Below, one piece after another: positions 1-42,713 of a stretch of DNA of 64,000 bases. A model generated the notes under the pieces. The model did no database searches and was not told the DNA's origin. It worked only from the letters and a program-made list of their open reading frames with translations. The translations under genes and the position numbers were made by a program. The stretch covers positions 1 through 64,000 of the IMG/VR virus record IMGVR_UViG_3300028840_004314; one strand, written 5' to 3'. The stretch comes from a virus. Numbering within the stretch: position 1 is the stretch's first letter; the number at the start of each line of letters is the position of its first letter.

Positions 1-159
1 GGTGTGGACGAATCGGATCTTCGCGATATGTTGGAGATTATGCCACTACAACAGGACGTTCATCCTTCGGAAGAAGGGGATACACCTTCAGAGGTTTTTG
101 TTAACTACATCAAGTTTGCCCTGGGTGAAGGATTCTTGGATGGGGGTGGGTTCGCCTAA
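1..159 (+). CDS. C-terminal fragment of an unrecognised protein (cut by window edge)
   Basis: Frame 1 is open from the first base to a TAA at 157-159 and encodes the last 52 residues of a protein whose start lies outside the window. The fragment is acidic (DESDLRDMLE near the left edge) and ends in a glycine-rich FLDGGGFA. Its stop overlaps the ATG of the next gene by one base (TAATG), so the two are probably translationally coupled. No domain is recognisable. A longer frame-2 reading of the same DNA was discarded because it runs through the next gene. Confidence 0.7.
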   Translation, partial: GVDESDLRDMLEIMPLQQDVHPSEEGDTPSEVFVNYIKFALGEGFLDGGGFA

Positions 160-509
160 TGATCAAAGACTTGCTACAAATCTTGTTAGAAGGCCAAGGC
201 CTATCAGAAGCCCACCGGGATCTGTTCCAGCCAGACAAAAGGGAACAGGAGGTGTACTACCTGGGTGGATTGCACATCCCTTTGGAAATAGTAATCTACT
301 GGAACAGGCCTTTGGAGGGATTGGAGAAGGATATGTTGTATCCCTTCATCCTATCCTTGGCGAGAACAGAATCGGAAGGGATCCCAAAACTAGGGGCCCC
401 ACTAATAGAAGGGATTGTAGATGCGTCGATGAATGTGGAGAGTGTTAACCCTTCGGGCGGTATCGAAGCGGTTATGGAGATTCTTATCAAGAGTGCCACC
501 AAGGAGTAG
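159..509 (+). CDS. Small protein with LxE-AHRDLF N-terminal motif (candidate capsid-targeted)
   Basis: A 116-residue protein of unknown function. Its first 25 residues hold two possible prohead-protease sites, LLE-G (residues 9-12) and LSE-A (15-18), the second followed directly by HRDLFQP. The same block recurs in many proteins of this window. The rest has no family I recognise; a segment reading DMLYPFILSL resembles EILYPFVLYA of the next gene, so the two may be distant paralogues. The start is the ATG overlapping the upstream stop. Role as an internal head protein is inferred from the motif alone. Confidence 0.75.
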   Translation: MIKDLLQILLEGQGLSEAHRDLFQPDKREQEVYYLGGLHIPLEIVIYWNRPLEGLEKDMLYPFILSLARTESEGIPKLGAPLIEGIVDASMNVESVNPSGGIEAVMEILIKSATKE

Positions 510-512
510 ATT

Positions 513-1187
513 GTGAGCCAGGAACTACTACAAAAACTATTGGAAGCACATCGAGACCTCTTCAAGCCTGGACAGGTACCGGAGGACATGCACTTCTTTG
601 TACTACCCGAGGCGGAGTTCGCCTTCACGGACGGGTTGTCTCTGGTGATTGATGAGAGGGAGGAAAACAGGCGATTCTCCAAGGATGAAATACTCTACCC
701 GTTTGTACTGTATGCCAATCCACATTTTACTGGGCAAGTCCTAGTAAGAGGTTATTTTGATGATGCTGGTTTTGTTCATACTATCACCAAAATGGAGGAT
801 AAGGAGTTACTTGTCCAAGGACTGTTTGAGCAGATGACCCCCGTCGAAAGGAACGCGACGGAGGTTCCGGAGGCGGTCCAGGAGGCCCACCGGGATCTTT
901 TCAAGCGTATGTCTAAGGAAGAGGCAGACCAAATCGAGGATACGACGGAGGTTTGGTTGCAGGATAATGAGTACATGGATATGTACAAGATGGTGGACGA
1001 TGGTGAAGGGCACGCCTCCTTGTATCTTGTGGAGCATCCGAGTATGGAGGAAGAACTGATAGCCAAGTTTGAGTATGGGGGAGCAGGTGTAACGGATGTA
1101 GTGGAGATGGATCAGGTGGCTGTACTGAATGCCATCTCTGGATTTTTCACAGGTGGGGCCACCAATTACAACGAGCCACCAGTGTAG
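513..1187 (+). CDS. Protein with two EAHRDLF motifs (candidate capsid-targeted, two-part)
   Basis: A 224-residue protein starting at GTG 513, preceded by AAGGAG with good spacing. The first 19 residues contain the complete recurring motif (LLEAHRDLFKP, Glu11 before the inferred cut). A second copy, VQEAHRDLFKR, lies at residues 122-132. The protein therefore looks like two units joined in tandem, each headed by its own motif. Both halves are acidic and neither resembles a family I know. If the prohead protease cuts at both sites, two mature peptides of about 113 and 100 residues would result; that is inference. Confidence 0.8.
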   Translation: MSQELLQKLLEAHRDLFKPGQVPEDMHFFVLPEAEFAFTDGLSLVIDEREENRRFSKDEILYPFVLYANPHFTGQVLVRGYFDDAGFVHTITKMEDKELLVQGLFEQMTPVERNATEVPEAVQEAHRDLFKRMSKEEADQIEDTTEVWLQDNEYMDMYKMVDDGEGHASLYLVEHPSMEEELIAKFEYGGAGVTDVVEMDQVAVLNAISGFFTGGATNYNEPPV

Positions 1188-1215
1188 CTTTTACTTCTTT
1201 TTGAAAGGGTGTACG

Positions 1216-1704
1216 ATGAAGCGAATGTTTATGTGTGCAGTATTGATTGTGCTACTGACAGGAGGTTGTGGCGAACAGATCTCAGCCGTTAGGGAGGAGA
1301 TTAGGGATCCCAACAGTCCTACCCAAAAGGTCGTTGAGGACATCAACAAGATCGGGGAGACGATTGAGCCTATTGTGAAGATCGTCGAGAAGACTCCTTG
1401 GGGAGCCCCCGTGTCCCTGGTTTTTAATGGTGTGATGGGTGCCGTGGCCTTCTTGTATCAGCAGAGACGCAAAAAGGAACGCAAGGCATTACAGGGAACT
1501 GTGGCATCGTTACAGGTTCTTAAGTCCAGTTTGGCAGCCGCGAGTCCTACCAAGAATTTGATTAAGGAAGCGTGTAACGTCATTCAGGACGCGGAGATCC
1601 AGGCGGAGGTTGCGAAACTCCGGGCCGACCCCACCACTAAGATATTGGTGGACAATGCCCTGGCGGACATGGCGATTGCGACCAAAACGCCGACTACACA
1701 GTAG
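1216..1704 (+). CDS. Putative lipoprotein with a second hydrophobic segment
   Basis: A 162-residue protein. The N-terminus is a typical lipoprotein signal: basic start (MKR), hydrophobic core and lipobox LTGGC with the Cys at residue 18. A second hydrophobic stretch (about residues 64-82, around VFNGVMGAVAFLY) is followed by a strongly basic QQRRKKERK, suggesting a membrane helix with a cytoplasmic-side anchor. The C-terminal 70 residues are Ala-rich and probably helical. Start ATG 1216 follows GAAAGGGTGTACG. The gene ends just before a strong terminator. It could act in lysis or superinfection exclusion, but nothing in the sequence decides this. Confidence 0.75.
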   Translation: MKRMFMCAVLIVLLTGGCGEQISAVREEIRDPNSPTQKVVEDINKIGETIEPIVKIVEKTPWGAPVSLVFNGVMGAVAFLYQQRRKKERKALQGTVASLQVLKSSLAAASPTKNLIKEACNVIQDAEIQAEVAKLRADPTTKILVDNALADMAIATKTPTTQ

Positions 1705-1725
1705 AATACTTTTCTTTTCTTGGCA

Positions 1726-1768
1726 GGGTGGTCCGCAGGGTGTGGGCGGGCCACCCAGTTTTCCTTGG
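1726..1768 (+). terminator. Rho-independent terminator after the lipoprotein gene
   Basis: GGGTGG at 1726-1731 pairs with CCACCC at 1751-1756, extended by TCCGC (1732-1736) against GCGGG (1746-1750) with one G-U pair. This makes an 11-bp stem with a 9-nt loop, followed by AGTTTTCCTT. It separates the lipoprotein gene from the next coding block. Confidence 0.7.
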
Positions 1769-1786
1769 GTGATGGGAGTAACAACC

Positions 1787-2077
1787 ATGTTGAAGTTTTC
1801 ATTAGAAGGTAACTTGAATAATCCCGCCGATCAGGTGGCCCTTAAGATGGCTCTGCACGGTGAGGACTTTTGTAGTATTGTACATTCACTGTCTCTGGAG
1901 TTACACTCCTTGGCGAATCCCCCTGGAGGAGTGTTTCCCGCGGAGATGCCAAAGGATCCGGAGGAGGCTTACTTGTTCGCCCTCCGAAAGGTATCCGAGT
2001 CTCTTTTCGAGGACATTGAGATCCACGGAGTGAATCCGGATTGGTGTGAGATGTGTCCTGAGGATACAGATGCTTAA
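1787..2077 (+). CDS. Small acidic hypothetical protein
   Basis: A 96-residue protein from ATG 1787 (GGGAG upstream at 1774-1778); ATG 1772 in the same frame is possible but lies at the foot of the terminator and lacks a binding site. It is acidic, with a Cys pair (CEMC) close to the C-terminus and an MPKDPEEAYLFALRKV helix. Its 3' end overlaps the next gene by 8 bases. No family is recognised. Confidence 0.65.
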   Translation: MLKFSLEGNLNNPADQVALKMALHGEDFCSIVHSLSLELHSLANPPGGVFPAEMPKDPEEAYLFALRKVSESLFEDIEIHGVNPDWCEMCPEDTDA

Positions 2078-2711
2078 CGAAATCTATGACACTTTGACAG
2101 AAGCCCACAGGGATCTCTTCAAACCTTGGGATTTGGACGACTGGATCTCCGATCAGATGAAGGAGACAGGAGCCAAGTGGAGGCTGAACGTCCGTGGTAA
2201 CAAGTGGGTCGTAGAGGGTGATGTAGTAATACCCATCGCCACGGAAATGACACAATTACCAGTGTCCTTTGTGTCCGTGTCTGGGAACTTCATCGCAGAG
2301 GATGTATCCCTAACTACACTGAAGGGATGTCCATCCGTGGTAGGTGGTAGCTTCAATGTATCCCACAATCCACTACAAACCTTGGAGTTTGGTCCATACA
2401 TAGTACACGGGAATTACATGGCGATGGATTGTGACATTGTGGACCTGCGTTGTGGCGAGACTGTGTGTGTCGGCGATTTCTCCGTGATGTACAACAGGAT
2501 TACAACGCTGTATGGTATGCCCAAGTACGTTGGTGGGGATTTGATTGTAGCACACAACCGGTTGGAGAACCTAGGAAACACAGCTGCAGTTGTTGTAGAA
2601 GGTAAGATTTACTACTTTCCACAGAGTTCCAAAACAACGGCCTTGGGTTCGGATTGGTGGGAGTCTACTTTCGAGGGTGATAGGGAAAAAAGAATGTCAG
2701 AATGGGAGTAA
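2070..2711 (+). CDS. Leucine-rich-repeat protein with capsid-targeting-like N-terminus (copy 1)
   Basis: A 213-residue protein from ATG 2070, preceded by TGAGGA. Residues 1-20 are the recurring motif LTEAHRDLFKP, with Glu11 before the inferred cut. From about residue 60 it has degenerate repeats of about 21 residues with the core pattern LxGxPxxVGGxFxxxxNxLxxL, a leucine-rich-repeat type common in phage and bacterial proteins. The repeats should form a solenoid for binding another macromolecule. Three paralogues occur at 3128, 25242 and 40804. I infer a packaged, target-binding protein; the target is unknown. Confidence 0.8.
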   Translation: MLNEIYDTLTEAHRDLFKPWDLDDWISDQMKETGAKWRLNVRGNKWVVEGDVVIPIATEMTQLPVSFVSVSGNFIAEDVSLTTLKGCPSVVGGSFNVSHNPLQTLEFGPYIVHGNYMAMDCDIVDLRCGETVCVGDFSVMYNRITTLYGMPKYVGGDLIVAHNRLENLGNTAAVVVEGKIYYFPQSSKTTALGSDWWESTFEGDREKRMSEWE

Positions 2712-2714
2712 ATC

Positions 2715-3128
2715 ATGACGGTCAGTAGGGAAAGTGTAATCAACTATGTGATGACGGGACAGAAGCCGGAAGAGTCTGGTGTCCCTGACAATAATCTGCA
2801 GGAACACAACATGCAGGATTCCTTGCCTAACATTCCTCCTTCAGATAGGGGACCAGGTGGGCCTAAATCGTCGAGCGATGCCTGGTCCCCAGTTTTTGAA
2901 ACCACATTGGAGGCCATCCTGGAGTATGTACAGACACACGGACGTCGATGTAACTACAAGATGATTGAACGGATGGCGTCCAAGGCTCTGGGGAAGAAGA
3001 GTGACATGGAGGAGAAAGTCCAGGAGGTTATGGAGCCGAAGACCACCCCTAGTGCAACGGAAACCAAACAAACCATGTCCGAGAATGTGGTGGATCACCT
3101 GGACACCCTGTTGAAGGCCTTGTCGTAA
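2715..3128 (+). CDS. Hypothetical protein, disordered N-terminus and helical centre
   Basis: A 137-residue protein of unknown function. Residues 1-55 are rich in Pro, Ser, Gly and Asn and look disordered. Residues about 58-90 form a helical, partly basic segment (VQTHGRRCNYKMIERMASKAL), and the tail is charged. It sits between two leucine-rich-repeat genes and its stop overlaps the ATG of the second (TAATG), so it is probably co-translated with them. No propeptide motif is seen at its start. Confidence 0.65.
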   Translation: MTVSRESVINYVMTGQKPEESGVPDNNLQEHNMQDSLPNIPPSDRGPGGPKSSSDAWSPVFETTLEAILEYVQTHGRRCNYKMIERMASKALGKKSDMEEKVQEVMEPKTTPSATETKQTMSENVVDHLDTLLKALS

Positions 3129-3856
3129 TGAGCGATCTGTTGACCACATTATTGGAAGCCCATTCAGACCTTTTCCAGCCAATGCCGGAGAAGGAATGGA
3201 TCGAACTTCTTCTTGAACAGGATGGGTGGACTAGGAACAAGGATGGAACTATCTCTGTAGACGGAGATGTGAATTTATCCAGTTGGGATTTCATTAGAAT
3301 TCCTATGAAGTTCAAGGAGGTTACGGGTAGTTTCAATGTGGCGAGCAACAGTTTGGAAACCTTGGAGGGATGTCCAAAAGTGGTTGGTGGATCCTTCATA
3401 TGTTCGTACAATATGTTGGATGACTTGAAGGGAGGGCCACAGGCGGTTGGGCTTCACTACAAGTGTGACAACGCTATGTTGACTTCCTTGGATGGGTCTC
3501 CATCTCGTATAATTGGTGGCTTTGATTGTCGTTTCAACAATTTGGAAACCCTGGAAGGTGGTCCGGATTATGTGGAGGCGGATTTTCTTTGTGCCTCCAA
3601 TCAACTCACCAATTTGGAGGGAGGACCACTGGAGGTGGGTGGGTCTTTGGATGTGAATGATAACGAACTGACCAGTTTGGAAGGGGCCCCGAGACGTATT
3701 GGACGGTATGTGTATCTTCGAAATAACAAATTGACCTCCTTGGAAGGCCTACCAGCGGAGGTGTATCCGAGCCAGTTCAAGAGTTTGAACTACAATCCAG
3801 CGTCTCGGGAAGAGTTACTATCAACTATTGGATTTGACAATGAACACGCAGATTGA
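3128..3856 (+). CDS. Leucine-rich-repeat protein with capsid-targeting-like N-terminus (copy 2)
   Basis: A 242-residue paralogue of the 2070 protein. The N-terminus carries LLEAHSDLFQP (Ser replaces Arg of the usual motif; Glu10 precedes the inferred cut). About seven repeats of 21-22 residues follow from residue 60, with units such as LTSLEGAPRRIGRYVYLRNN. The repeat register is the clearest of the four family members. Sheet-forming residues alternate with conserved Asn, as in leucine-rich solenoids. The gene overlaps its neighbours at both ends. A packaged or delivered binding protein is the inference; the repeats themselves are seen directly. Confidence 0.82.
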   Translation: MSDLLTTLLEAHSDLFQPMPEKEWIELLLEQDGWTRNKDGTISVDGDVNLSSWDFIRIPMKFKEVTGSFNVASNSLETLEGCPKVVGGSFICSYNMLDDLKGGPQAVGLHYKCDNAMLTSLDGSPSRIIGGFDCRFNNLETLEGGPDYVEADFLCASNQLTNLEGGPLEVGGSLDVNDNELTSLEGAPRRIGRYVYLRNNKLTSLEGLPAEVYPSQFKSLNYNPASREELLSTIGFDNEHAD

Positions 3857-4211
3857 ACTAGTACAAAGAGTGTGCGAAGCTGAAGGAAGATTTAACAACA
3901 CATCCTACGAGTCAACTGTACGGCAGGCGTCGGAGTGTTTGAACAAGAAGCAGTATGGACGTTGTGTAGAACTGTTAAGCACTCTACCTACCAACAAAGA
4001 ACTGTTACAACAACTGATAGAAAACCTCAAGGGCAAGTCAGTGTACAGTACACTAAAGAAGTTGGAAAAAGGTCGGATTGATAACAAATATCAGAAACTA
4101 AAAGCCTTGTCATCCCTGTTAACACATACTATAATAGAATGTGAGAAGGGTAATTTTCATTACCGTCCATTGATCATTTATCTGTATGAAAGAATAGGAG
4201 CCGCCATGTAA
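3840..4211 (+). CDS. Helical hypothetical protein
   Basis: A 123-residue protein from ATG 3840, inside the last codons of the previous gene. It is lysine-rich and predicted almost wholly helical (for example LNKKQYGRCVELLSTLPTNK). It is basic, unlike its acidic neighbours. The stop overlaps the next ATG (TAATG). No domain is recognised and there is no propeptide motif at the start. Confidence 0.65.
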   Translation: MNTQIELVQRVCEAEGRFNNTSYESTVRQASECLNKKQYGRCVELLSTLPTNKELLQQLIENLKGKSVYSTLKKLEKGRIDNKYQKLKALSSLLTHTIIECEKGNFHYRPLIIYLYERIGAAM

Positions 4212-4525
4212 TGAAAGATTTGTTGGATAATCTGTTGGAGGCCCACAGGGATGTATTCTCTCCTGAAAACCTTCCCCCCGAGGAACAGGACAAGTGGGAG
4301 AAGGATCAAGTCATGTCTAACTGGGAGCCGGAGGATATTGATACCTTGGCTCGTGGTGTTTTGAATCAGATGCGTAGGGCCATGGAAGCGGTGATGAAGG
4401 AAAAGTGGGACGAGGCCGTACGGTTGTATCCACAACAAGTACTGTCAGCTATCGCCCTTACCCTGGATGAACGTGGATGGGATATAGCTCCACCCGACAA
4501 CATAGAGGACTACCTGGACGTTTAG
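4211..4525 (+). CDS. Small protein with EAHRDVF N-terminal motif (candidate capsid-targeted)
   Basis: A 104-residue protein. Residues 1-19 are a clear copy of the recurring motif, LLEAHRDVFSP, with Glu10 before the inferred cut. The mature part would be about 94 residues, acidic and helical, with several Trp. It is the last of the first run of motif-bearing genes. T4 internal proteins are similarly small and begin with a ten-residue targeting peptide, which supports the reading as an internal head protein; the mature part is unlike any T4 internal protein I know. Confidence 0.75.
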   Translation: MKDLLDNLLEAHRDVFSPENLPPEEQDKWEKDQVMSNWEPEDIDTLARGVLNQMRRAMEAVMKEKWDEAVRLYPQQVLSAIALTLDERGWDIAPPDNIEDYLDV

Positions 4526-4526
4526 T

Positions 4527-5873: not shown

Positions 5874-5888
5874 TTGGGAGCTTTAATC

Positions 5889-6518: not shown

Positions 6519-6575
6519 GAGACACACGTTCGGTAGTACAACCTTTTACAATCACCATGACAGGAGTGTAAAATC

Positions 6576-6950: not shown

Positions 6951-6999
6951 TTGATCTTTTAGTCATTCTATTACCGTGGGTCATTTTTTGGAGCGCATC

Positions 7000-9147
7000 A
7001 TGCGGAAAGACATTGTAGATATCCTAGTCGATGGTGGAGTTAAGTTGGTTCATGAATCCGCCCATCACATTACAAAGGTTCACCGTACAAAGGTGAACGA
7101 ACAGGGTGTGGATGAAGAGCCATTGAAGCTCCCCGCCTCCGAGGACGTTCCCATGGGAGACGATATCCCTACTGATGAGGAGGTACCTCCAACGGGTGGT
7201 ATACCTGAGGAGGAGAAAGAGCAGGAGCCAGTTAGCAAACGATACCTCGGAAAGGCCGGGGACAACTACCTGTACTTCGTTACGAAACAGAACGACGGGG
7301 ATCAGGTGGAAGATATGCAGATACTGAATCAGGATGAGGAAGTAGTGTACAGTGCGGCCGACGCCGACGAGGATTTCTCCAACTTTGACGAGTTTCTCTT
7401 GCATGCCATTCACAACACCGAGATGGACGACGTCGCCAAGGACGTGTACGACGAGTTCATCTATCCGAAGTTGGTTGAACCCGAGATGCCCGAGGACGCT
7501 CTGGCTATGGGCGATGAAGAGGAGGGGCCGATGGATGATGCGGGTCCTGGTCCCTCCAGGTCCAGGAAACCTTCCAGGTTGGGTCCGATCGGTAAAAAGG
7601 GCCCCTTAAGCGGACCTAAGGGTGGACCAGAGGGTGGACCGGAGGAGGGCCCCTCCTTAGGTGGGCCTAAATCCCCGACACCACCCATGAAGGATGAAGA
7701 GGGTCCCGAGGGTGGGCCGAGAAGTCCGGAGAAGCCACCTGTGCCCGAGCCTGAAATGGACGAGCCTCCAATTGGTGAGCCCGAGCCCGAGGAGAAACCT
7801 CGTCGTCGGCCTCGTAGACGTCCTCCGACTTCACCAAAGTCCTTTGGACCGGACCTTCGTCCCAGGGAGTCCAGGAGACGTGGTCGAAGAGTGAAGGAGG
7901 CCCATCGTGATTCATTTGAACCAGACGAGATCGAACTTCCTCAGGCGCTTCACCAGGCCATTATGAGCCTTCGGAACGATCCGGAGTTACAGGCTGTCGG
8001 TATTGGTGATACAGCCACGGATGAGGGTATTTCCATGTCAGTGGAGTACCTTCTTCAAAATGGATTACAGTCCATGGATTCTTTGTTGGACAACACAGGA
8101 GGAGATCCCTATAATCTTCTTCCCACGGAGGACGAGGCTGATAACATGGAACCCGAAAGTTGGGATCCCATGCAGTTTGCCTCTGTGCAGAAGGGCGTGA
8201 AGAAGATCACTCAAACAGTGTACAAAGCCTTGGAGGACTCTTGGGACGAGTTGCAGCAATATGATCCTCAGACGGTGGGTGTAGAGGTGTACGACATACT
8301 CCATACGTCTGATGATTCGGAGTACGACGACGAGGAGGATGGGGATTGGACCCAGGAGAATGAACGCCGGAAAAAGATGAACGAGATCTTTTATGGTAAG
8401 CAGGACGAAGGTCCAACCCTTTCGGATATGCCCAAACCCTTGGTGGATGCCCTGAAAAAGATCAAGTCGGATCCGGAGCTTCAGACGTTGGGTGTAGGTG
8501 ATACTGCCACGGACGAAGGTATTTTCCATGCCATCGCCTACATTTTTGAAGAGGGGTTGGACGGTTTCAATACATTACTCCAAACGGAGTCCGGTGAGTT
8601 GATGGATCCGTATAACCTTCTTCCGACTGAGCAGGAGGCCAAGGATGCCGAGCTGTCCGATTACGATCCTACAAGGTATCCTTCTGTACAGAAAGGAATG
8701 AAGAAGATAACACAGATGTTGCAGGCAGGTTTGGAGAAGAGCTGGAGTGGGTTGGAGACCTCCGGGTTGGATGGTAATGAAATACTCCACGTTCTGTACA
8801 GTTGGTTTCACTTTGGAAGTGAAGAGGACGACGAGGAGGAGGCCGCTCCGGAGTTTGAAAGTAGGAAACGTCCTACTAAGGAGAGTCGTGTAAACGAGGA
8901 GCGTTACACATATTCCGGACCCACTGGTGACAACCACTACTTCCTGGACTTCAACGACGCCGAAGAGGAAATGATGGTGACGGATGACAAGGGCAACTCC
9001 TTGATCTCGGGCACTTATGGAACGAAGGGAGAGACGTATACGATCCAGAGTCCCCACGCTGTGGCCAAGTTGGTGTTGGATTTGTTCCAAGAGGAGGACG
9101 AGAAGGTATCAGCCGGATGGAGACTTATGAAGAGGCGGGTATGTTGA
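7000..9147 (+). CDS. Large acidic modular protein with duplicated domain and internal EAHRDSF motif
   Basis: A 715-residue protein from ATG 7000 (GGAG 9 bases upstream; GTG 6976 is in frame but lacks a site). Order: helical start with VHE-S (residues 17-20); a domain near residues 80-170; a Pro/Gly-rich linker (about 185-285) ending in a basic patch; VKEAHRDSFEP at 298-308; two tandem copies of a domain of about 145 residues (306-455 and 468-610), both with GDTATDEGI, YNLLPTE and SVQKGxKKITQ; then VNEERY at 631 and a C-terminal domain. Propeptide-like sites fall at domain borders, as in a polyprotein cut during head maturation. The cutting is inference. Confidence 0.7.
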   Translation: MRKDIVDILVDGGVKLVHESAHHITKVHRTKVNEQGVDEEPLKLPASEDVPMGDDIPTDEEVPPTGGIPEEEKEQEPVSKRYLGKAGDNYLYFVTKQNDGDQVEDMQILNQDEEVVYSAADADEDFSNFDEFLLHAIHNTEMDDVAKDVYDEFIYPKLVEPEMPEDALAMGDEEEGPMDDAGPGPSRSRKPSRLGPIGKKGPLSGPKGGPEGGPEEGPSLGGPKSPTPPMKDEEGPEGGPRSPEKPPVPEPEMDEPPIGEPEPEEKPRRRPRRRPPTSPKSFGPDLRPRESRRRGRRVKEAHRDSFEPDEIELPQALHQAIMSLRNDPELQAVGIGDTATDEGISMSVEYLLQNGLQSMDSLLDNTGGDPYNLLPTEDEADNMEPESWDPMQFASVQKGVKKITQTVYKALEDSWDELQQYDPQTVGVEVYDILHTSDDSEYDDEEDGDWTQENERRKKMNEIFYGKQDEGPTLSDMPKPLVDALKKIKSDPELQTLGVGDTATDEGIFHAIAYIFEEGLDGFNTLLQTESGELMDPYNLLPTEQEAKDAELSDYDPTRYPSVQKGMKKITQMLQAGLEKSWSGLETSGLDGNEILHVLYSWFHFGSEEDDEEEAAPEFESRKRPTKESRVNEERYTYSGPTGDNHYFLDFNDAEEEMMVTDDKGNSLISGTYGTKGETYTIQSPHAVAKLVLDLFQEEDEKVSAGWRLMKRRVC

Positions 9148-10082
9148 CCAACGACAAAGGGTTGGTGATTCATCTGGACAACGGACAGTCGTTCACCGTT
9201 ACTGTAAAGAGGTACAAAGGAGATGGTAGTGTAAGTGAAAAGGACATTGTTGAAATACTGCCGTACCTAAACGCCGAACTGGAGGATAACTGGAGTAAGC
9301 TGGGAGACGACGACAATGAAGACATGGAGGAAGGGAAGAAGTTCGACAAGTGTGTAAAGGACGGTGGTCGTGTACGTCGAGTGTCCGGGGAGAAGAAACA
9401 TGGCCTGGACAAGGATGAGTATGTGAACTACTGTTACAGTGGTGGAGATTCCTTCCGAGGTGAAGTGAAGAAGAAAAAGACAAAGGAGGCCTGTGGTAAA
9501 ATCCATCGCGACAAGAGCAAAAAGAAGGTGAACGAGACCTGGGACGAAGGTCCCTTCCGTCGGATGTGGGACGAGCAACAGGATCCCAAGGCCATTCTGA
9601 TCGCCAATCTCATCGCCGAGGTGTGGAATGGTGGCTTTGAACAGTGGGTCGCCAATACCTCCACGGGGGATCAAACAGACACCCGGGATGCCCTGGAACC
9701 CATTCAAGGGGAGAATGTAAAGAAGCTGGCCAAGATGGTGGATGAAATCATTTCCATGCAAGTTCCTGCCTCTACTCCTTGGATAGAGGAGGAGTCGTGG
9801 TATCAGGACAATGAGGAGAGGTTGGACGCCATGGATCGGGAGTTTTACGACGTGGATGAAGTAGTGGTCAATGAGTTGGACGCCCACTATGGTGGAGACC
9901 TTTCCGGAACCGCGAAGTACAATTTCGAGGGTATCCAGGTGGAAGGTGAAGACGGGAATTACAGGATTCGAACCAAGGAAGGGGTGACACATTGTAGTGA
10001 AGCTGCTATACTGGCGTGGTCAGGAGCCGACTCCATAACGGAGGAAGTACTGAAAGTGTTTGTAACTGAAGCCATCAATTAA
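9117..10082 (+). CDS. Multi-domain protein with DMP19-like segment
   Basis: A 321-residue protein starting at ATG 9117 inside the previous gene's end; ATG 9138 is also possible. Residues 145-215 contain NGGFEQWVAN (171-180), the hallmark of DMP19/DUF4375 domains, a fold studied in Neisseria as a DNA mimic. The segment just before it is basic and Cys-containing (85-140) and ends in KVNE-T at 138-141, a possible processing site. The C-terminal 60 residues resemble a small beta domain and end in VTEAIN. Like its neighbours it is likely to be packaged or core-associated, which is inference. Confidence 0.6.
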   Translation: METYEEAGMLTNDKGLVIHLDNGQSFTVTVKRYKGDGSVSEKDIVEILPYLNAELEDNWSKLGDDDNEDMEEGKKFDKCVKDGGRVRRVSGEKKHGLDKDEYVNYCYSGGDSFRGEVKKKKTKEACGKIHRDKSKKKVNETWDEGPFRRMWDEQQDPKAILIANLIAEVWNGGFEQWVANTSTGDQTDTRDALEPIQGENVKKLAKMVDEIISMQVPASTPWIEEESWYQDNEERLDAMDREFYDVDEVVVNELDAHYGGDLSGTAKYNFEGIQVEGEDGNYRIRTKEGVTHCSEAAILAWSGADSITEEVLKVFVTEAIN

Positions 10083-10849: not shown

Positions 10850-12715
10850 ATGAAAGAGCAGTTATTTGAAACCAGTTTCGTGAAGGCCGACATACTTGAA
10901 TCTGATTCGGCGAAGCTTCCCAAGGGTGTCCTGTGTCAGGGTGTGTGGCCGATTTGCAACATCGGTAAATTGAACCACAACAATCGGATGTACGAGAAGG
11001 ACGTTTACGAGAGGGTGATCGCAAACGCCCTGATTACCGAGAAGATGAAGAACAGGACCCTGTACGGTGAACCCGAGCATCCTCAGGAGACCCAGTCGTC
11101 CTTGGATCGTACTTCTCACATCGTCACCGACATGTGGATCGATGAGAAAACCGACCGCGTGATGAACAGGATTGAAGTCCTGAACACCCCTGGTGGTCAG
11201 CTCATCAATACACTCCTGGAGGCAGGGTGCCTTGTGGGTGTATCCACACGGGCCGAGGGAGAACTGGAGGAGGTTCGCGAAGGTCAGAAAGAACCTTACA
11301 TGAGAGTCGTTCCGGAGTCGTACAATTATGTAACCACGGACTTCACGGCCGATCCCAGCACACTTGGGGCCATTCCTGTCCAAGTGGAGAAGAACGTCGT
11401 GAACCAGGTACAGGAGGCCTTGAAGGAAGGTAAAGTGGACAAACGCTTTGCCTGTTCCTTGCTGGAGTCCTGTAAGAGCAAGGAGGCGAAGACTCTTCTG
11501 GAAACCGTCCAGGAAAAGGAGGAGCCCACGGAGAAGGAGCCTACCAACGAGAAAGATGAATCCCCCTGGCGTAAGCTGAAGGTGGGAGACAAAGTGAAGT
11601 ACGAAGGAAAGGAGTACTCCGTCAAAGGTATTTCATTGGAGGAAAGCACCGTGGATATTTCAACCGATGATGGAACGGTGGTATCCGTCAATGATCCCGA
11701 CTCACTTGTCGTGATCACACCTCCTGATGGATCTGCTGTACCAGTTACTGATGAACCTCCATCATCACCCCCAGTGGACCTGGAGGACGTCGTTCCTCCA
11801 GGTCCCGATATTGACGTGGCCATGGAACCTCCTGGAGTACCCGAGGAGGACCTTGAGGCCGAATTGGAACCCGAAGGCCCCTCCGGACCAGAAGCCCTAG
11901 GCCTGGACCTGGAAGAGCCGGAGGAGGTTCCTGAGCTCGAAGAGGAGCCAGAGGAGGAGGAAGAGGACGAAGAGGAGATGAACGACAGTAAGAAAGCCTC
12001 CTCTGGTGATGACAAATTGGACGAGACGGACGATCAGAAGGCCAAGGAGTCCAAGACTCCCGCGTCGGACCTAACCAAGGAGATATTGTCCAACAAGATC
12101 GACAAGGCCCTGGCTGAAGCCCAACGAGACAAGGCTGTTGAAGTGGCCAGTGAGATTGAGGAACAACGTGTGAAGGAAATCGCCATCCTCACCAAGAAGC
12201 TGAACGCCCTCCGCGAAGAGTTGAAACCGGAGGACAGGAGTGTACTGGACCAGGCCCTGGCGGAGAACGAGGCCCTTCAGAAGAAGATCCAGGAAATGAA
12301 GAAACAGGCGAAGCTTCTTATGGAGAAGATCAGTAAGATCAAGGAGTCCTTCGCCGCTCAGTTGTCGACCGTTAAGGAAGGCGTCGTGAAGATGGAGGAG
12401 GACTTCAAGAAGAAGTTGGAAGAGGAGAAGAAGAGGTTGGCAGAGGAAGCCCACCAGGTATTTATGGAGAGATACGCCAAGTATAAAATCGAAACGTCAG
12501 GTCTGCCCGTGACGGAGAAGGTTCGAACACTTATCGAATCCTGCGACACGCCAGAGGAGGCGGATGAGTTGGTGGAACATGTACGCGATACGCTTCGCGA
12601 GAGTGCACTTCACTCCGAAAAGTTGGAGAGCGTGGATGTGGACGCCATGAAGGAAAACTCCGGCCAAGTTTACATTGATAAGGTGGTCGGGGATTTCATG
12701 GACGCGATGATATAG
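10850..12715 (+). CDS. Prohead protease (S80, gp21-like) fused to a coiled-coil scaffold-like domain
   Basis: A 621-residue protein. Residues 1-190 are a T4 gp21-type (peptidase S80) domain: NHNNRMY at 42-48, GEPEHP with probable catalytic His77, and GVSTRAEG with probable Ser132. It should cut capsid, scaffold and targeted internal proteins after LxE-type sites. Residues 190-260 form a linker with a small beta segment (VGDKVKYEGKEY). Residues 280-390 are acidic and Pro-rich. Residues 410-545 are a long Lys/Glu coiled coil and the end is helical. In T4 protease and scaffold (gp22) are separate; here one chain seems to hold both. LFE-T (5-8) may be a self-cutting site. The next gene is the capsid protein. 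Confidence 0.88.
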   Translation: MKEQLFETSFVKADILESDSAKLPKGVLCQGVWPICNIGKLNHNNRMYEKDVYERVIANALITEKMKNRTLYGEPEHPQETQSSLDRTSHIVTDMWIDEKTDRVMNRIEVLNTPGGQLINTLLEAGCLVGVSTRAEGELEEVREGQKEPYMRVVPESYNYVTTDFTADPSTLGAIPVQVEKNVVNQVQEALKEGKVDKRFACSLLESCKSKEAKTLLETVQEKEEPTEKEPTNEKDESPWRKLKVGDKVKYEGKEYSVKGISLEESTVDISTDDGTVVSVNDPDSLVVITPPDGSAVPVTDEPPSSPPVDLEDVVPPGPDIDVAMEPPGVPEEDLEAELEPEGPSGPEALGLDLEEPEEVPELEEEPEEEEEDEEEMNDSKKASSGDDKLDETDDQKAKESKTPASDLTKEILSNKIDKALAEAQRDKAVEVASEIEEQRVKEIAILTKKLNALREELKPEDRSVLDQALAENEALQKKIQEMKKQAKLLMEKISKIKESFAAQLSTVKEGVVKMEEDFKKKLEEEKKRLAEEAHQVFMERYAKYKIETSGLPVTEKVRTLIESCDTPEEADELVEHVRDTLRESALHSEKLESVDVDAMKENSGQVYIDKVVGDFMDAMI

Positions 12716-12766: not shown

Positions 12767-14305
12767 ATGAAGAAATCGACCATTCAAAATCTGGCTGAGG
12801 CCAGGTATCAGCAGATCCTGCAGCAGCAGGAGCAGCTCATCGAGGGGTGGAAGCCCATCCTCAACGCGTGCAACAAGTGGAATGAGGAACACCGCGGAGA
12901 GCCCCTGGATAAGCACCAGATGAGAAACATCGCACAGTGCCTGGAGAACGCCTACATCGAGGGCTCCTTCCGCCAGCACAGCAAGATGTTTGAGGCCACC
13001 ACCGAGGACAACATCAGCTTCCTGGGCGTTCAGCTGCCCGTGATTGCTGCCATCGTTCCCTCGCTGGTGCTGAATGACGTCGCCGTTGTGCAGGCCTTGG
13101 ACCGTCGAACCGGTTCCGTGTTCTATCTGGACGTTAAGGCCGGCTCCACCAAGGGTGGTGTCACGAGCGGAGACGTTCTGATGGATGCCAAGACTGGCCA
13201 TGCCAGGACCAAGACCAACCGCCTGTACGCCGCGGCCATCGTCGAGAACGAGACCCTGGTGGACGAGGGTGGTGGAGGTGCCGCCACGTACACTGGTACG
13301 GTGGATTTCGCCCCCGGGTTGATCAACCTGGAGTACGTGACCATCAAGGATTCCAGTGGAACCGTGCTGGGCCGTTCCAACAGCTCAGGTACGATCACCG
13401 ATGCCACCTCCGGCAGTACGGGTGTTACCGGTACCATCACCGCGGCAGGTGTGTACAGCATCGACTTCAGTGCCACGTCTCTCGGCTCTGGAAATGGTGC
13501 CACGATCACCTACCACTACCAGTACGACCTGCCCACCGATGCCTATGGCAACAATGATGGTGTCCCCCAGATGGACATCAACATCAGCTCGAGTGCCATC
13601 GAGTCCATCGACTTCCCCGTGAGGTCGCGGTACAGCATCGGTGCCATGTTCGACCTGAAGAAGGCACATGGCATGGACCTCGAGTCCGAGGTTGTGAAGT
13701 ACCTGGGTGGCGAAGTCCGCTGGACCGTGGATCATTATGGCATCGACCTGATCGAGACCGCGGCCACTGGTGGGTATGATCCCATCGCGGGGGCCAATTT
13801 CAGCCCCGCGACCGCGATCACGGCCTGGAACGCCAACGTCGGCTCCGGTGAGCCCTGGATCTGGAAAAAGGAGGAGTTCATAGATCGTATCTATGAAGGC
13901 TCCAACAACATCCAGTCCAAGACGCTGCGCGCGATCGGTAATTTCATTATCGCCGATCTGAACGTGTGTCGTGTGATCAGCCAGCACAGCAAGTTCAAGG
14001 GCAATGCCAATATCACTGGCAAGAAGGCCCCGACTGGCCCGGTGAACATCGGTACGCTGGACAACCGATTCACCGTCGTTCAGGATCCCTTCCTGACCAC
14101 CAATCGTTACCTGGTGGGCTACAAGGGCGATCACTTCTTGAACGCGGGCATGATTTACGCCCCGTACATCCCGCTGTTCGCCAGCCCCACGCTGACGACC
14201 GCGGACCTGATCGCCCAGAAGGGCTTCATGAGCTCGGCTGGGTTCAAGATCACGAACGCCGGTATGTTCACCTACGGCTCCATCAGCGGTACCTACTTTA
14301 GCTAG
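12767..14305 (+). CDS. Major capsid protein (T4 gp23-like)
   Basis: A 512-residue protein from ATG 12767, preceded by AAAGGAAC. The segment from about 70 to 125 matches the gp23 family pattern: a processing site followed by hydrophobic VPSLVLNDVAVVQALDRRTG. By analogy with T4, the mature protein probably begins after MFE (Glu76), at ATTEDN; LAE-A at residues 9-12 is a further possible cut. An inserted beta-rich domain (about 165-255, Gly/Ser/Thr-rich) interrupts the core. Codon use is more GC-rich and uniform than in neighbouring genes, as expected for the most abundant product. It follows the protease gene and ends at a strong terminator. Confidence 0.9.
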   Translation: MKKSTIQNLAEARYQQILQQQEQLIEGWKPILNACNKWNEEHRGEPLDKHQMRNIAQCLENAYIEGSFRQHSKMFEATTEDNISFLGVQLPVIAAIVPSLVLNDVAVVQALDRRTGSVFYLDVKAGSTKGGVTSGDVLMDAKTGHARTKTNRLYAAAIVENETLVDEGGGGAATYTGTVDFAPGLINLEYVTIKDSSGTVLGRSNSSGTITDATSGSTGVTGTITAAGVYSIDFSATSLGSGNGATITYHYQYDLPTDAYGNNDGVPQMDINISSSAIESIDFPVRSRYSIGAMFDLKKAHGMDLESEVVKYLGGEVRWTVDHYGIDLIETAATGGYDPIAGANFSPATAITAWNANVGSGEPWIWKKEEFIDRIYEGSNNIQSKTLRAIGNFIIADLNVCRVISQHSKFKGNANITGKKAPTGPVNIGTLDNRFTVVQDPFLTTNRYLVGYKGDHFLNAGMIYAPYIPLFASPTLTTADLIAQKGFMSSAGFKITNAGMFTYGSISGTYFS

Positions 14306-24969: not shown

Positions 24970-25245
24970 ATGCCAAAGAGGAAGCCGGTTAGAACACATA
25001 CGTTCCGTTACGGTGTTTACAGAATCGAAGAGGCCTTGGGGGCCGATGGTGTTTGTGATGTACCAGACAACAGATTACGAAAAACACTGGATATGATGAT
25101 CTACCAGGGAAATAGTCTAAGGGCGTTGAGAACGGCGATACATGAATCCATGCACGCCGAAGGTGTACCTGACAGATTCGTCCATGGGCTGACTCCTGAT
25201 AGGATCGCCAGTTTTCTATGGAGACTTGGTTGGCGACGAAGATGA
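24970..25245 (+). CDS. Small HExxH protein (putative metallopeptidase-like)
   Basis: A 91-residue basic protein with HESMH at residues 58-62, in the helix context RTAIHESMHAEG typical of zinc HExxH folds. Such short proteins in phages (TLIHExxHA type) have a minimal metallopeptidase core, but often no proven activity. A third metal ligand is not obvious. The gene overlaps the start of the downstream leucine-rich-repeat gene by four bases (ATGA), so the two should be produced together. Confidence 0.6.
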   Translation: MPKRKPVRTHTFRYGVYRIEEALGADGVCDVPDNRLRKTLDMMIYQGNSLRALRTAIHESMHAEGVPDRFVHGLTPDRIASFLWRLGWRRR

Positions 25246-25877
25246 TTAAACACATCGAACAATTAATGGAAGCCCATAGGGACATCTTCAAGCCAATGCC
25301 AGAGGATGAACAGAGAAACATCTGGACTGACTTCCTGGCACAAATGGTGATATTGGAGGGATGGAAACTCACAGATCATGGAATAGAAGTTCCAGGTACT
25401 GTGAATTTCGGGGAGGATTTTACAGATGTGGAGGAACTACCCTTTAAATTCTGGACTGTAGGAGGCGATTTTCTCATATACAATGGAGTGTTGGCCACCT
25501 TGGCAGGTTGTCCAGTTCAAGTAAAGAAAACTTTCGACTGTGAAGGTAACATGCTGACTTCGTTGAAGGGTGGACCGAAATTTGTAGGGGCTCATTACGA
25601 ATGTGGTTGGAATGTATTGAATTCCTTGGAAGGGGCCCCGGAGTTTATACCTGGAAACTTCTCTTGTAGCAATAATAACTTGGTTGATTTACGAGGTGGT
25701 CCAAGGGTGGTGATGGGTGACTATCGTTGTGAAAACTGTAACATAAGATCCTTCAAAGGGGCCCCAGAATATGTGGGCGGGAATTTCTACTATGCTAAGA
25801 ATTCTGTGGATCTGGAGGATTACAAAGAACTACAGAAATGGTGGCTTCAACTTCGCCGAGAAGGTTTGAAGATATGA
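25242..25877 (+). CDS. Leucine-rich-repeat protein with capsid-targeting-like N-terminus (copy 3)
   Basis: A 211-residue protein from ATG 25242 in an ATGA overlap. Residues 1-20 contain LMEAHRDIFKP with Glu10 before the inferred cut. From about residue 70 there are six repeats of about 21 residues of the type LxxLxGxPxxVxGxFxCxxN. It belongs with the proteins at 2070, 3128 and 40804. Differing synonymous codons in the shared motif show that these copies are not recent duplicates. Confidence 0.8.
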   Translation: MIKHIEQLMEAHRDIFKPMPEDEQRNIWTDFLAQMVILEGWKLTDHGIEVPGTVNFGEDFTDVEELPFKFWTVGGDFLIYNGVLATLAGCPVQVKKTFDCEGNMLTSLKGGPKFVGAHYECGWNVLNSLEGAPEFIPGNFSCSNNNLVDLRGGPRVVMGDYRCENCNIRSFKGAPEYVGGNFYYAKNSVDLEDYKELQKWWLQLRREGLKI

Positions 25878-26754: not shown

Positions 26755-27641
26755 TGTTTGATCTGATTGAAAATATCGAGAACTACGACGTGGTGAACGA
26801 GACTACCACCGAGGACAACGTGTCTTTTGTACCGGCACAAATGGGAGTAGTACAACACAGGTTGAAATCCTTGTCCAAGAAGAAAACCGATTGGAACCTG
26901 GAGGTCCTGGAGGACATGAACAAGCGGGCCGTGATGTTTGAAGATCAAATGGCCTTCATTGTCCCCGATGAACATTGGTCTGTGTTCCAGTCCATTTTTG
27001 GATCGGAGGATTTGAAGACGGGTAGTGTAGTAAACCTTCAACGATTCTTGAACGAATCCATGGAGGATGAGCTGGAAACCTTGAACAATGAGGTCCGTCC
27101 GGCTATAATTAATCTATATGAGTCATCTATTTTTGATGCGGCCGACGCGAATATACGAAGATGGATGGCTTTTTTCAAGAGAAGCGACCACGTTCCACAA
27201 TCGGATGTGCTTGTTTCTTTCATCGACAAGCAAAAACAGTTGGCGGCCGTTATTACTGGTCTGAAGAAAGCCTACGGAGGGGAGAAGGGCAGTTTGGAGA
27301 TGCTGCTGGATGCTTTGGAACAAAAGGATCCTTTGTCCACGTTTGAGATATTCAAACGCCGCACCTATTTGTATGGGGCCAAAGTATCCAGTTTTTATGA
27401 AGGCGTCCAATTGTATTTTGTATCAACGATTGATCCAACGTACACTTTACAGGAAAAGGTGGTCATAAGGTCGGAAGGAGTCGCCGAAGAGTTAACAGTA
27501 GACATGGGAAACGTTAGAGTTGTGCGTGATACTATCTATCCGATAGGGGAACAGTTCAGCTCTAGCTTCTTTAACCTCCTACGTACAGCCTTGGATGACT
27601 ACACCACGGATGCTGTGGCCTCAATGGACGAGGAGAGTTAG
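26754..27641 (+). CDS. Virion protein with capsid-like processing context
   Basis: A 295-residue protein from ATG 26754. Near the N-terminus it reads VVNETTTEDNVSF, closely matching the inferred maturation site of the capsid protein (MFEATTEDNISF). If both are cut after Glu, this protein is another substrate of the prohead protease. The rest is acidic, helical and strand-mixed, with no known domain. It lies between the SWIM gene and the second run of propeptide genes. A head or neck role is inferred. Confidence 0.6.
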   Translation: MFDLIENIENYDVVNETTTEDNVSFVPAQMGVVQHRLKSLSKKKTDWNLEVLEDMNKRAVMFEDQMAFIVPDEHWSVFQSIFGSEDLKTGSVVNLQRFLNESMEDELETLNNEVRPAIINLYESSIFDAADANIRRWMAFFKRSDHVPQSDVLVSFIDKQKQLAAVITGLKKAYGGEKGSLEMLLDALEQKDPLSTFEIFKRRTYLYGAKVSSFYEGVQLYFVSTIDPTYTLQEKVVIRSEGVAEELTVDMGNVRVVRDTIYPIGEQFSSSFFNLLRTALDDYTTDAVASMDEES

Positions 27642-35668: not shown

Positions 35669-35682
35669 AAAGGAATAGAGAG

Positions 35683-36541: not shown

Positions 36542-36542
36542 A

Positions 36543-38120: not shown

Positions 38121-38122
38121 TT

Positions 38123-40532: not shown

Positions 40533-40807
40533 TGGCTTCAAAAAACATAGCTTGTTTAGGTGATGGGGCCACTCACTCGGGTTCTATTGTCACATCCGGG
40601 CAGGATGGGAGCTTCACGCTCAACGGGTTGGAAGTCGCCGTGGAAGGGGCCCGATTTTCTTGTAACATAAAGAAACATGGAACGACGGATATTACACCGG
40701 CTTCCACCACTACTGGTGCCAATGGGAAAGCCATCATAGGTACTGGTTCCGTGGCTGGCTGTGGGGCCGTGATAACGCCTCCGGATAGAAAGGCCTACAT
40801 AGGATGA
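40532..40807 (+). CDS. PAAR spike-tip protein
   Basis: A 91-residue protein with the usual PAAR layout: KNIACLGDGATHSGSI at the start, a mid-segment with NIKKHGTTDI, then GKAIIGTGSVAGCGAVI. PAAR proteins form a metal-binding cone on the trimeric spike of contractile tails and type VI systems, sharpening the tip. Normal length for the family. It overlaps the previous gene (TAATG) and next (ATGA). Confidence 0.9.
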   Translation: MASKNIACLGDGATHSGSIVTSGQDGSFTLNGLEVAVEGARFSCNIKKHGTTDITPASTTTGANGKAIIGTGSVAGCGAVITPPDRKAYIG

Positions 40808-41451
40808 GAGAGTTACTAGACATCTTATTTGAAGCTGACGAAAAGAAACGTCATCGGGATTTGTTTCGTCCTGTAACTCCGGAGGAACAGGATGAAATGT
40901 ACAAGGAGGAGGTTCGTGGATTTATCGAATGGGTTCAGGCTCTACCAGGTATTATAGTACATCGCGATGGTTCTTTGTCTACCAACGGAGATGTTAACAT
41001 AGCGGACTGGTTGGACGGATATACTGGCGGGGAAGAAGTGCAATTAGACGGACAACTTCCGTTCAAGTTTAGGTACGTTGGAGGAGATTTTGACTGTTCC
41101 CACTTACTTCTTCATACACTTAAGGGTTGTCCTAGAAATGTAGGAGGAAGTTTCTTTTGTGAACATAACAGTTTGGACTCTCTGGAAGGTGGTCCTAACA
41201 AAGTGGGAGGGATGTACGATTGTTCCGACAATGAATTAACTACTTTGTATGGTGTGGCAGACACGATTGGGGACAATCGAGTTTTTGACTGTTCAAATAA
41301 CGCGTTAGAGGAGATAGATGAACTTCCTTCAAATGTGGATGGTTGTGATGTGGTTGCCGGCGGTAATGTAGAGTATCAGAAGAGGATGGTCTACGACTAC
41401 TTCGGAGAGGATTACGACGAGGATGATGAAGATTGGGAGATAGAGGCGTAA
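40804..41451 (+). CDS. Leucine-rich-repeat protein with split capsid-targeting-like N-terminus (copy 4)
   Basis: A 215-residue protein in an ATGA overlap with the PAAR gene. The start reads LLDILFEADEKKRHRDLFRP: LFE-A (Glu10) and HRDLFRP are both present but separated by five extra residues. From about residue 85 it has repeats LxxLxGxPxxVGGxFxCxxNxL. The C-terminus is a very acidic tail (EDYDEDDEDWEIEA). A head-targeted solenoid gene inside the baseplate cluster is unexpected. Related to the 2070, 3128 and 25242 proteins. Confidence 0.8.
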   Translation: MRELLDILFEADEKKRHRDLFRPVTPEEQDEMYKEEVRGFIEWVQALPGIIVHRDGSLSTNGDVNIADWLDGYTGGEEVQLDGQLPFKFRYVGGDFDCSHLLLHTLKGCPRNVGGSFFCEHNSLDSLEGGPNKVGGMYDCSDNELTTLYGVADTIGDNRVFDCSNNALEEIDELPSNVDGCDVVAGGNVEYQKRMVYDYFGEDYDEDDEDWEIEA

Positions 41452-41729
41452 TGGAGAGGCCTGAGGAAAGTACTAAATTACAGCGGGTATGTAGTAAACG
41501 TACCATATGTGAAGTACATCGTCAGATAAAAGATTTGGTATTTTTCGATGGTGACAAAAAGGAGATTTTGGCTTTAGTGGATGAAGCCTTTGAGATGGGT
41601 GTGGCGATGACTAAGAAGTTGGTGGAGTACAAGTGTAGTTTGCCTGACTGGAAAAAGAACACCAACAAGGAGGAGATCGCCCGTATTCGGAAACTACGAT
41701 TGGAATTGGAACGTCATGACAATGGATGA
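41451..41729 (+). CDS. Small helical hypothetical protein
   Basis: A 92-residue protein beginning in a TAATG overlap. It is helical and charged with a pair of Cys near residues 14 and 20. The end overlaps the spike gene by 14 bases. No domain is recognised; it may be a small assembly factor for the spike, by position only. Confidence 0.5.
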   Translation: MERPEESTKLQRVCSKRTICEVHRQIKDLVFFDGDKKEILALVDEAFEMGVAMTKKLVEYKCSLPDWKKNTNKEEIARIRKLRLELERHDNG

Positions 41730-42414
41730 TCACAAGTTTACAGGAATGTACCGCGGAAAAGTACTGGCTACCGACGCCAATGAGTCCAACCAATATGGAC
41801 GGCTCAAGGTGGAGGTATATCCCATGATGTTGGGTAAAGCCACTGCCGTGGAACAAGGGAAACTGGGCAACACAGTTGAAGGAATGACTACATCACAAAT
41901 GCCTTGGGCTGTTCCTGCAACTCCACTCTTCTCTGGGGCTGGATCTGGACATGGTTGGTTCGCTGTACCTGAGGTAGGATCCTATGTGTTCGTGTTCTTT
42001 TTGGAGGGCGACATCAACCAACCAGTGTACTTTGCGGAGGCCCCCACGGGATCCCACGGACTACCGGCCTCCCGTACGACTAATTACCCTGCCAGGAGGG
42101 TCCTCCGGACCAAGGCTGGGTTGGAAGTCATCTTTGACGATACTGACACCCAGATCGATATAAAACAGCCTACAGGGTCGTACATTCGGTTGGACAGCGA
42201 TGGTAATATCAAGGTGGTAGCCACGGGAGATGTAGATGTACAATCGGAGGGTGACACAAACATAACATCTGAGGGTGATACACAAATAACGACAACTAAA
42301 AGTGCGAAGGTGAACTCCACAGAAGGGGTACAAGTTACAAGTGTAGGTCCCGTTACAGTAACATCTTCTTCCACAGTAACCATAACTGGAACAGCCGTGA
42401 GTATAAACACATGA
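41716..42414 (+). CDS. Baseplate spike protein (gp5/VgrG/gpV-like)
   Basis: A 232-residue protein. Residues 10-100 are an OB-fold: FTGMYRGKVLATDAN, GRLKVEVYPMM, AVPATPLFSGAGSGHGWFAVPEVGSYVFVFFLEGD, typical of gp5/VgrG. The C-terminal 90 residues are a triple beta-helix needle of short VxSxGDxxITS repeats. No lysozyme domain is present, unlike T4 gp5, so peptidoglycan cutting must come from elsewhere. The PAAR protein would cap this needle. Confidence 0.88.
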   Translation: MTMDDHKFTGMYRGKVLATDANESNQYGRLKVEVYPMMLGKATAVEQGKLGNTVEGMTTSQMPWAVPATPLFSGAGSGHGWFAVPEVGSYVFVFFLEGDINQPVYFAEAPTGSHGLPASRTTNYPARRVLRTKAGLEVIFDDTDTQIDIKQPTGSYIRLDSDGNIKVVATGDVDVQSEGDTNITSEGDTQITTTKSAKVNSTEGVQVTSVGPVTVTSSSTVTITGTAVSINT

Positions 42415-42713
42415 ACCTAATACAACAACTAATGGAAGCCGATGATGGACATCGCGAACTGTTTCGTCCTATGGACAGTAAGGAAGTACACAAGGCTGAT
42501 GCCAATATGTCTGTGGATGATCTAAACAGGGAGGCCAATAATGTGTATCAACAGTTTCGTTCGGAACTCATAGAGATGGTCAAACACATTGGGGAAGGTC
42601 GTGGGGAGAATTTGCTGGAAGGTGTGTGTGAATTTATCTACGAGGACAGGCAGGAAATCATTGATATGATCATCGAGGGACTGGGCAATCCTGGTATGTT
42701 TGGAGCAGGCTAA
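42411..42713 (+). CDS. Small protein with split LME-A...HRELF motif (candidate capsid-targeted)
   Basis: A 100-residue protein in an ATGA overlap with the spike gene. The start reads LIQQLMEADDGHRELFRP: LME-A (Glu9) and HRELFRP separated by three residues. The rest is helical and acidic. It is the second propeptide gene embedded among baseplate genes, directly before gp25. A packaged protein is inferred. Confidence 0.7.
   Translation: MNLIQQLMEADDGHRELFRPMDSKEVHKADANMSVDDLNREANNVYQQFRSELIEMVKHIGEGRGENLLEGVCEFIYEDRQEIIDMIIEGLGNPGMFGAG

Follow-up and report, generated by a model that had tools for sequence, protein, structure and literature searches.

A conserved N-terminal tag as a candidate head-packaging signal on accessory proteins of an uncultured myovirus

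Introduction

The T4 protease gp21 cleaves behind L/I-x-E; the internal proteins of T4 have leaders of 10–19 residues, and in IPIII the first 10 residues are enough for packaging (PMC9026906). The available text of that source describes the capsid-targeting sequence (CTS) as a possible means by which various proteins are incorporated, and one CTS serving several proteins is already known (PMC9026906). The virus record IMGVR_UViG_3300028840_004314 is an 84-kb myovirus fragment of 84,485 bases; its first 64,000 bases are the window analyzed here. Eight open reading frames (ORFs) of the window, referred to below by the position of their first base, start with a short leader of about ten residues followed by LxE-A/G and by H(R/S)(D/E)(L/I/V)FxP, a tag whose second part is abbreviated HRDLFxP. 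This tag is probably a head-packaging signal in two parts, of the same type as the T4 capsid-targeting sequences and carried by accessory cargo, a reading held here with modest confidence. The core of the observation that led to this work, an original prediction made from the letters of the window alone, holds, and the prediction as a whole is only partly confirmed.

Results

The tag and its copies

All eight starts named in the original prediction (159, 513, 2070, 3128, 4211, 25242, 40804 and 42411) were read and carry LxE-A followed by an HRDLFxP-type motif, with the added detail that G may replace A and that spacing varies in 40804, 42411 and 159. In each of the eight, [LIMF]-x-E-A/G lies inside the first 18 residues, always in the strict form L/I-x-E (LLE, LSE, LTE, LME or LFE), and the H of the tag is residue 12–19. 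HRDLFxP directly follows LxE-A/G in five of the tagged starts. The spacing from A to HRDLF/HRELF is five residues in 40804 and three in 42411, while in 159 an LLEG stands before LSEAHRDLF, so that HRDLF comes after the second site. The internal copies predicted for the 513 and 7000 products were both found, as QEAHRDLFKR at base 882 and as a degenerate KEAHRDSFEP at base 7897. Gene calls came from a custom script, not a standard gene finder, in which ORF 513 was called from an inner ATG at 588; 25242 is a putative start within ORF 25218. No copy of the tag was found on the minus strand, and a degenerate DNA pattern for EAHRDxF, run over the whole record, gave six forward matches, none in reverse and none in the reversed-pattern control. 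The N-terminus of the 7000 product (MRKDIVDILVDGG) is similar to the leader of 159 (MIKDLLQILLEGQ), with D replacing E.

The tag is far beyond chance. A profile of HRDLFxP trained on the four copies from leucine-rich repeat (LRR) proteins alone was run on 131,184 stop-free 7-residue windows in six frames of the whole record. All ten copies came out on top: the held-out ones, six in number, scored 17.5–24.7 and the next window 13.0, so that in this genome-wide motif search, which had been proposed along with the prediction, the copies outrank every other window. In 38 between-group pairs of tag copies, the fraction of differing sites was 0.892 for synonymous (pS) and 0.127 for non-synonymous positions (pN), with the internal copies, 4211, 42411 and 7000 each counted as their own group and the x position omitted. 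The low pN against a nearly saturated pS indicates that selection acts on the peptide and that the tag was not copied recently as DNA.

Conservation is distributed unevenly over the tag. Between families (21 pairs from the eight tagged starts), identity is 0.74 for HRDLFxP and 0.45 for the leader, which falls to 0.31 when LxE is left out. The opposite pattern was seen in the small sets used for comparison: in two T4 sequences, IPII and IPIII, the leader is identical (MKTYQEFIAE|A) and the seven residues after A are 0.29 identical, and in three sequences from contig G005, described below, leaders are 0.6–0.8 identical and the eight residues after E 0–0.25. Conservation that ends at the cut, a trait of two T4 proteins and not a published criterion, is thus not what the tag displays. 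Unlike in T4, the conserved block is mostly on what would be the mature side of the predicted cut. Better conservation of HRDLFxP than of the leader suggests a retained docking motif. In the available text of the literature consulted we saw no description of a tag kept beyond the cut in several families.

A candidate protease and its site in the capsid protein

A gp21-like protease had been predicted at 10850, and this is borne out by a match to Peptidase_S77 (E 2.7e-14). The long charged C-terminal part of this protein likely serves as scaffold; in Maribacter phage Molly_1 the gene before that of the major capsid protein (MCP) is annotated 'prohead core scaffolding protein and protease'. In an alignment of the MCP with T4 gp23, T4 gp24, LIS04 and Molly_1, the putative site MFE|ATTEDN stands opposite LLE|TT in LIS04, IME|AT in Molly_1 and LRE|ST in gp24. 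The MCP (FEATTEDNISF) and the product of 26754–27641 (NETTTEDNVSF) also have a stretch in common right after the putative cut site.

Table 1. Tagged genes, internal copies of the tag and head genes in the window.
Coordinates	Strand	Feature	N-terminal start	Evidence or remark
159..509	+	tagged protein, 116 aa	MIKDLLQILLEGQGLSEAHRDLFQP...	held-out profile score 24.4
513..1187	+	tagged protein, 224 aa, GTG start	MSQELLQKLLEAHRDLFKP...	AGGAG few bases 5' of GTG; first half probable paralog of 159
876..908	+	internal copy VQEAHRDLFKR within 513 product		held-out score 18.8
2070..2711	+	tagged LRR protein, 213 aa	MLNEIYDTLTEAHRDLFKP...	
3128..3856	+	tagged LRR protein, 242 aa	MSDLLTTLLEAHSDLFQP...	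LRR_4 match below cut-off
4211..4525	+	tagged protein, 104 aa	MKDLLDNLLEAHRDVFSP...	body like domain of 7000 product
7000..9147	+	715-aa acidic protein, two repeated domains	MRKDIVDILVDGG	contains degenerate internal copy
7891..7923	+	degenerate internal copy VKEAHRDSFEP within 7000 product		held-out score 17.5
10850..12715	+	prohead protease, S77, T4 gp21 family, long charged C-terminal part		Pfam PF03420 Peptidase_S77 E 2.7e-14, above cut-off; phrog_207 9.2e-36
12767..14305	+	major capsid protein, putative cut MFE|ATTEDN at residues 74-77		phrog_138 1.8e-41
25242..25877	+	tagged LRR protein, 211 aa	MIKHIEQLMEAHRDIFKP...	ORF has further ATG at 25218
40804..41451	+	tagged LRR protein, 215 aa	MRELLDILFEADEKKRHRDLFRP...	
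42411..42713	+	tagged protein, 100 aa	MNLIQQLMEADDGHRELFRP...	held-out score 20.7

Families among the tagged proteins

The tagged chains had been described as otherwise unrelated, which proved overstated. With the tag removed, 2070, 3128, 25242 and 40804 match one another in all six pairs (E 9e-34 to 6e-16) and are LRR paralogs. No other tagged body matches these convincingly, and the best other pair is 4211 against 7000 (E 0.008). In shuffle tests this pair was matched by none of 500 shuffles, and the body of 4211 is similar to one domain in the 7000 product. The score of 159 against residues 1–100 of the 513 body was reached by 18 of 500 shuffles, and these two are probable paralogs. Neither 4211 against 42411 (12/500) nor 42411 against 7000 (150/500) was convincing. 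By our count the tagged proteins appear to make up three to four families, not eight, and the same tag thus stands on distinct families (LRR, 159/513, 4211 and 42411).

Pfam searches of all eight tagged proteins gave no match above cut-off. Of the five searched against PHROGs (159, 513, 2070, 3128 and 4211), only 3128 matched, to two families of unknown function. Against solved structures the LRR profile matched Internalin-J (3e-10) and, at 1.7e-4 and weaker, chains of IpaH7.8; these matches were read as the LRR fold only and not taken as identity. The predicted structure of the 513 product had a mean pLDDT (predicted local distance difference test) of 45.5 and a pTM (predicted template modeling score) of 0.36, and searches for relatives of the 513, 7000 and 10094 products found none.

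Weaker starts

The original prediction extended the set to weaker starts at 10094, 27676, 28685, 29809 and 30768, and from there to a dozen or more packed proteins. These five lack HRDLF, and as a class they are little above chance. Among 100 untagged gene calls, [LIMF]xE[AGS] begins at residues 5–18 in six: 10094, 10850, 12767, 27676, 28685 and 32180. All six are among the 50 genes before base 47,000 (2.1 expected), with none among the later 50 (1.8 expected), and two of them are the protease (10850) and the MCP (12767). Both 29809, with V in place of L, and 30768, with I, fall outside the six. The counterpart of 27676 in the related locus L081 reads RIEEAKD at the LxE place; that of 28685 matches the C-terminal part only and has a different N-terminus. 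It is possible that the weaker starts are leaders, but individually they are unsupported, and a dozen or more packed proteins is likewise an unsupported figure, eight being well supported. The zinc-like (28685) and nucleotidyltransferase (29809; NTP_transf_2 in Pfam, E 4.7e-6) proteins named in the original prediction do not carry HRDLFxP.

Genomic placement

By sheath protein, the nearest relatives are the loci L080 (64%), L081 (58%) and L082 (57%). Of the 41 window gene calls that start between 14 and 48 kb, 21 have a matching ORF in L081; the matching genes follow one order in both, apart from the PAAR and Phage_base_V-like genes, which have changed places. None of the tagged genes 25242, 40804 and 42411 has a matching ORF in L081. 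There the Phage_base_V-like, PAAR and next (42713-like) genes directly adjoin, and the counterparts of 23905 and 25874 are separated by a single unmatched ORF of 124 aa. Neither L080 nor L082 extends over these places, and the compared stretch does not include the remaining five tagged genes. The N-termini read elsewhere on the L081 contig (L116 and L117) showed no tag. The tagged genes are best explained as accessory cargo genes, half of them encoding LRR proteins.

Search for the tag and for similar cargo in other phages

The motif search in related phages that accompanied the prediction was also run, and no relative with HRDLFxP on such genes was seen. A degenerate DNA scan of viral contigs matched the tag pattern at five loci, all judged chance: L063 and L067 contain the same stretch (MHELHEAHRDLFLP), the matches in L065 and L066 fall in very short frames, and that in L064 lies inside a longer minus-strand frame. 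HRDLF-like patterns gave 21 matches in genome contigs and no relative. When up to two mismatches to the tag were allowed, three contigs with LRR genes gave one out-of-place match, and a control also gave one. Proteins related to the LRR ones are present in 16 phage records (2 Vibrio, 4 uncultured and 10 Prevotella) and at nine IMG/VR loci on seven contigs. Scans for LRR proteins that included HRDLF-like patterns found no tag in the six of nine viral loci read, from collections that may omit near kin of the window, and HRDLFxP is absent from all LRR relatives read.

In the case of contig G005 (L089, 319 kb), eleven tandem LRR genes at 38.7–47.5 kb share a T4-like leader; all 11 were read and start like MKRIxNYKTFxNES, with one SES and one NEI. 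Two non-LRR proteins of the same contig start MIKNYNNFINES and MKNIKLYENFINEK, found at two and three mismatches, respectively. At up to three mismatches the leader pattern gave 15 forward and 4 reverse matches, and its reversed control 3 and 4. The LRR relative in L093 has KNFLFEG.

Extended N-termini shared within a locus were surveyed in 54 protease-bearing loci of 3–20 kb, some of them near-duplicates. Shared N-termini were absent from 46, and a tag like HRDLFxP from all 54. One pair with GGTRANRF was present in each of L048, L050, L052, L053 and L057, N-termini that we take to be tail-tube-like, and a single pair of some other kind was present in each of L012, L014 and L028. Applied to the window, the test, which took ATG starts and so missed 513, gave four tag pairs in 1–20 kb, one in 40–60 kb and two untagged pairs in 20–40 kb. 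The idea that the tag is a general feature of phages with an S77 protease was dropped on this survey.

Other genes of the record

The DMP19 protein of Neisseria is a DNA mimic, and a DMP19-like domain (PF14300, E 1.1e-9, residues 160–249) is present in the protein encoded at 9117–10082, just upstream of the protease region. Adjacent genes at 18879–20456 and 20466–22058 (525 and 530 aa) have alike starts and are probably tandem paralogs. A glycan gene cluster at 49111–60320 adjoins the tail genes and looks like one for nonulosonic acid synthesis, with a family 2 glycosyltransferase (50572, 3.9e-22), a cytidylyltransferase (53782, CTP_transf_3 2.9e-18), a short-chain dehydrogenase (54873) and a NeuB family protein (56608, 1.1e-61). 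Beyond the window, GTP cyclohydrolase I (L061 5832–6416, record 69331–69915, 4.6e-66), a radical SAM protein (L062 2800–3516, record 76799–77515, 1.5e-9) and QueC (L062 4674–5378, record 78673–79377, 3.1e-10) are encoded, a possible route to 7-deazaguanine DNA modification.

Discussion

From these results we infer packaging, cleavage, docking and delivery to the host in the following way. The leader, about ten residues long with LxE at its end, would recruit the new protein to the prohead scaffold core, where its partner may be the charged C-terminal region of the 10850 product. The S77 protease would then cut after E, before A/G, and remove the leader, leaving HRDLFxP at or near the new N-terminus. 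The retained HRDLFxP would most likely act as a docking motif that attaches the mature proteins to one shared partner within the head. A docking motif is suggested because HRDLFxP is better conserved than the leader, stands at a variable distance from the cut and recurs in the 513 product beside E-A. The variable distance argues against the motif being only a protease subsite, and the second copy beside E-A in 513 fits a motif needed by each mature piece. A fuller version, in which the removable leader is followed by an HRDLFxP that anchors the mature proteins and both 513 pieces to one head receptor, so that any tagged accessory gene becomes deliverable cargo, is put forward tentatively and falls short of being probable. 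The solid ground for these proposals is the motif, the selection on its peptide, the three genes absent from the relative, the protease family and the consensus site by homology. The predicted leader cut by a gp21-type protease thus stands as the best-supported reading, given the S77 protease, the MCP site aligned with gp24, the leaders of about ten residues and the three accessory genes, while the packaging, cleavage and delivery that came with it are proposed conditionally.

Several observations weigh against this interpretation. T4 gp23 has no E in the MCP cut column, and the MCP site rests on gp24, LIS04 and Molly_1; gp23's own cut, which we take to be LTE|A, lies upstream of the aligned column, and the exact cut residues of gp23 and gp24 are presumed here. 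Both internal copies have V instead of L/I two residues before E. The sets behind the conservation comparison are few in members, and T4 IPI, with its differing leader, was omitted from them. LRR relatives in L068, L087, L090, L092 and L094 have no clear leader. HRDLFxP on such genes occurs in no other scanned phage, and the motif cannot be followed through evolution.

The main rival is that LLxEAHRDLFxP as a whole forms a single uncleaved docking peptide for a phage protein such as scaffold, portal or shell, its LxE-A being part of a binding helix and no protease site. The better conservation of HRDLFxP agrees with this, as do the internal copies, both of which keep E-A-H-R-D without L/I at the LxE position. 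However, LxE-A/G and HRDLF are 3–7 residues apart in 40804, 42411 and 159, yet both are kept, a gp21-family protease is encoded, and the leader alone is similar to T4 leaders; we consider an uncleaved peptide unlikely. Contractile injection systems load cargo into the tube or onto the spike by means of effector leaders, and the tag could serve the tail tube or spike in the same way, not the head. A PAAR gene (40532, E 1.3e-7) directly precedes 40804, and a Phage_base_V gene (41716, E 1.6e-7) directly precedes 42411, but five of the eight tagged genes lie at 159–4525, upstream of the protease and MCP, and 25242 lies elsewhere, which makes tail loading improbable. A functionless relic of duplication from one ancestor whose bodies diverged, which the four LRR paralogs and the probable pair 159/513 might suggest, is the least credible and already hard to keep, as the peptide is retained with synonymous sites near saturation, bodies from different families have no convincing similarity except 4211 with 7000, and two copies are internal.

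If the tag is a two-part head-packaging signal, it offers a sequence handle for listing the packaged accessory proteins of an uncultured phage and another tag for loading proteins into phage heads. It also raises the possibility that LRR proteins in large phages are carried in the head. A retained docking motif, suggested here where known T4 leaders are discarded, makes it possible to test whether cargo holds a defined place in the head after maturation.

Known systems resemble this locus to differing degrees. As in the tag, the N-terminal 30 residues of P1 DarB form a signal that suffices to bring a reporter into the capsid (PMC9024508); unlike here, the available text of that source describes it for one 250-kDa protein and for no set of unrelated proteins. 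In the giant phages phiKZ and SPN3US a gp21-like protease cuts after E in head proteins, and the paralogs gp53 and gp54 have identical N-termini, as described in the available text (PMC5694885). The SPN3US site, by contrast, is A-x-E, and most propeptides are 111–254 residues, with two of 20 and 24 (PMC10052503). Contig G005 is alike in that its 11 tandem LRR genes and two non-LRR genes have a common leader like NYKTFxNE, but outside the LRR paralogs they have little or nothing in common after E. The T4 CTS (IPI, IPII, IPIII and Alt) shares with the tag a short N-terminal leader ending x-x-E, its presence on different proteins and a gp21-family protease in the phage. However, IPII and IPIII keep the leader and not the residues after the cut, whereas the phage of this window keeps HRDLFxP more than the leader.

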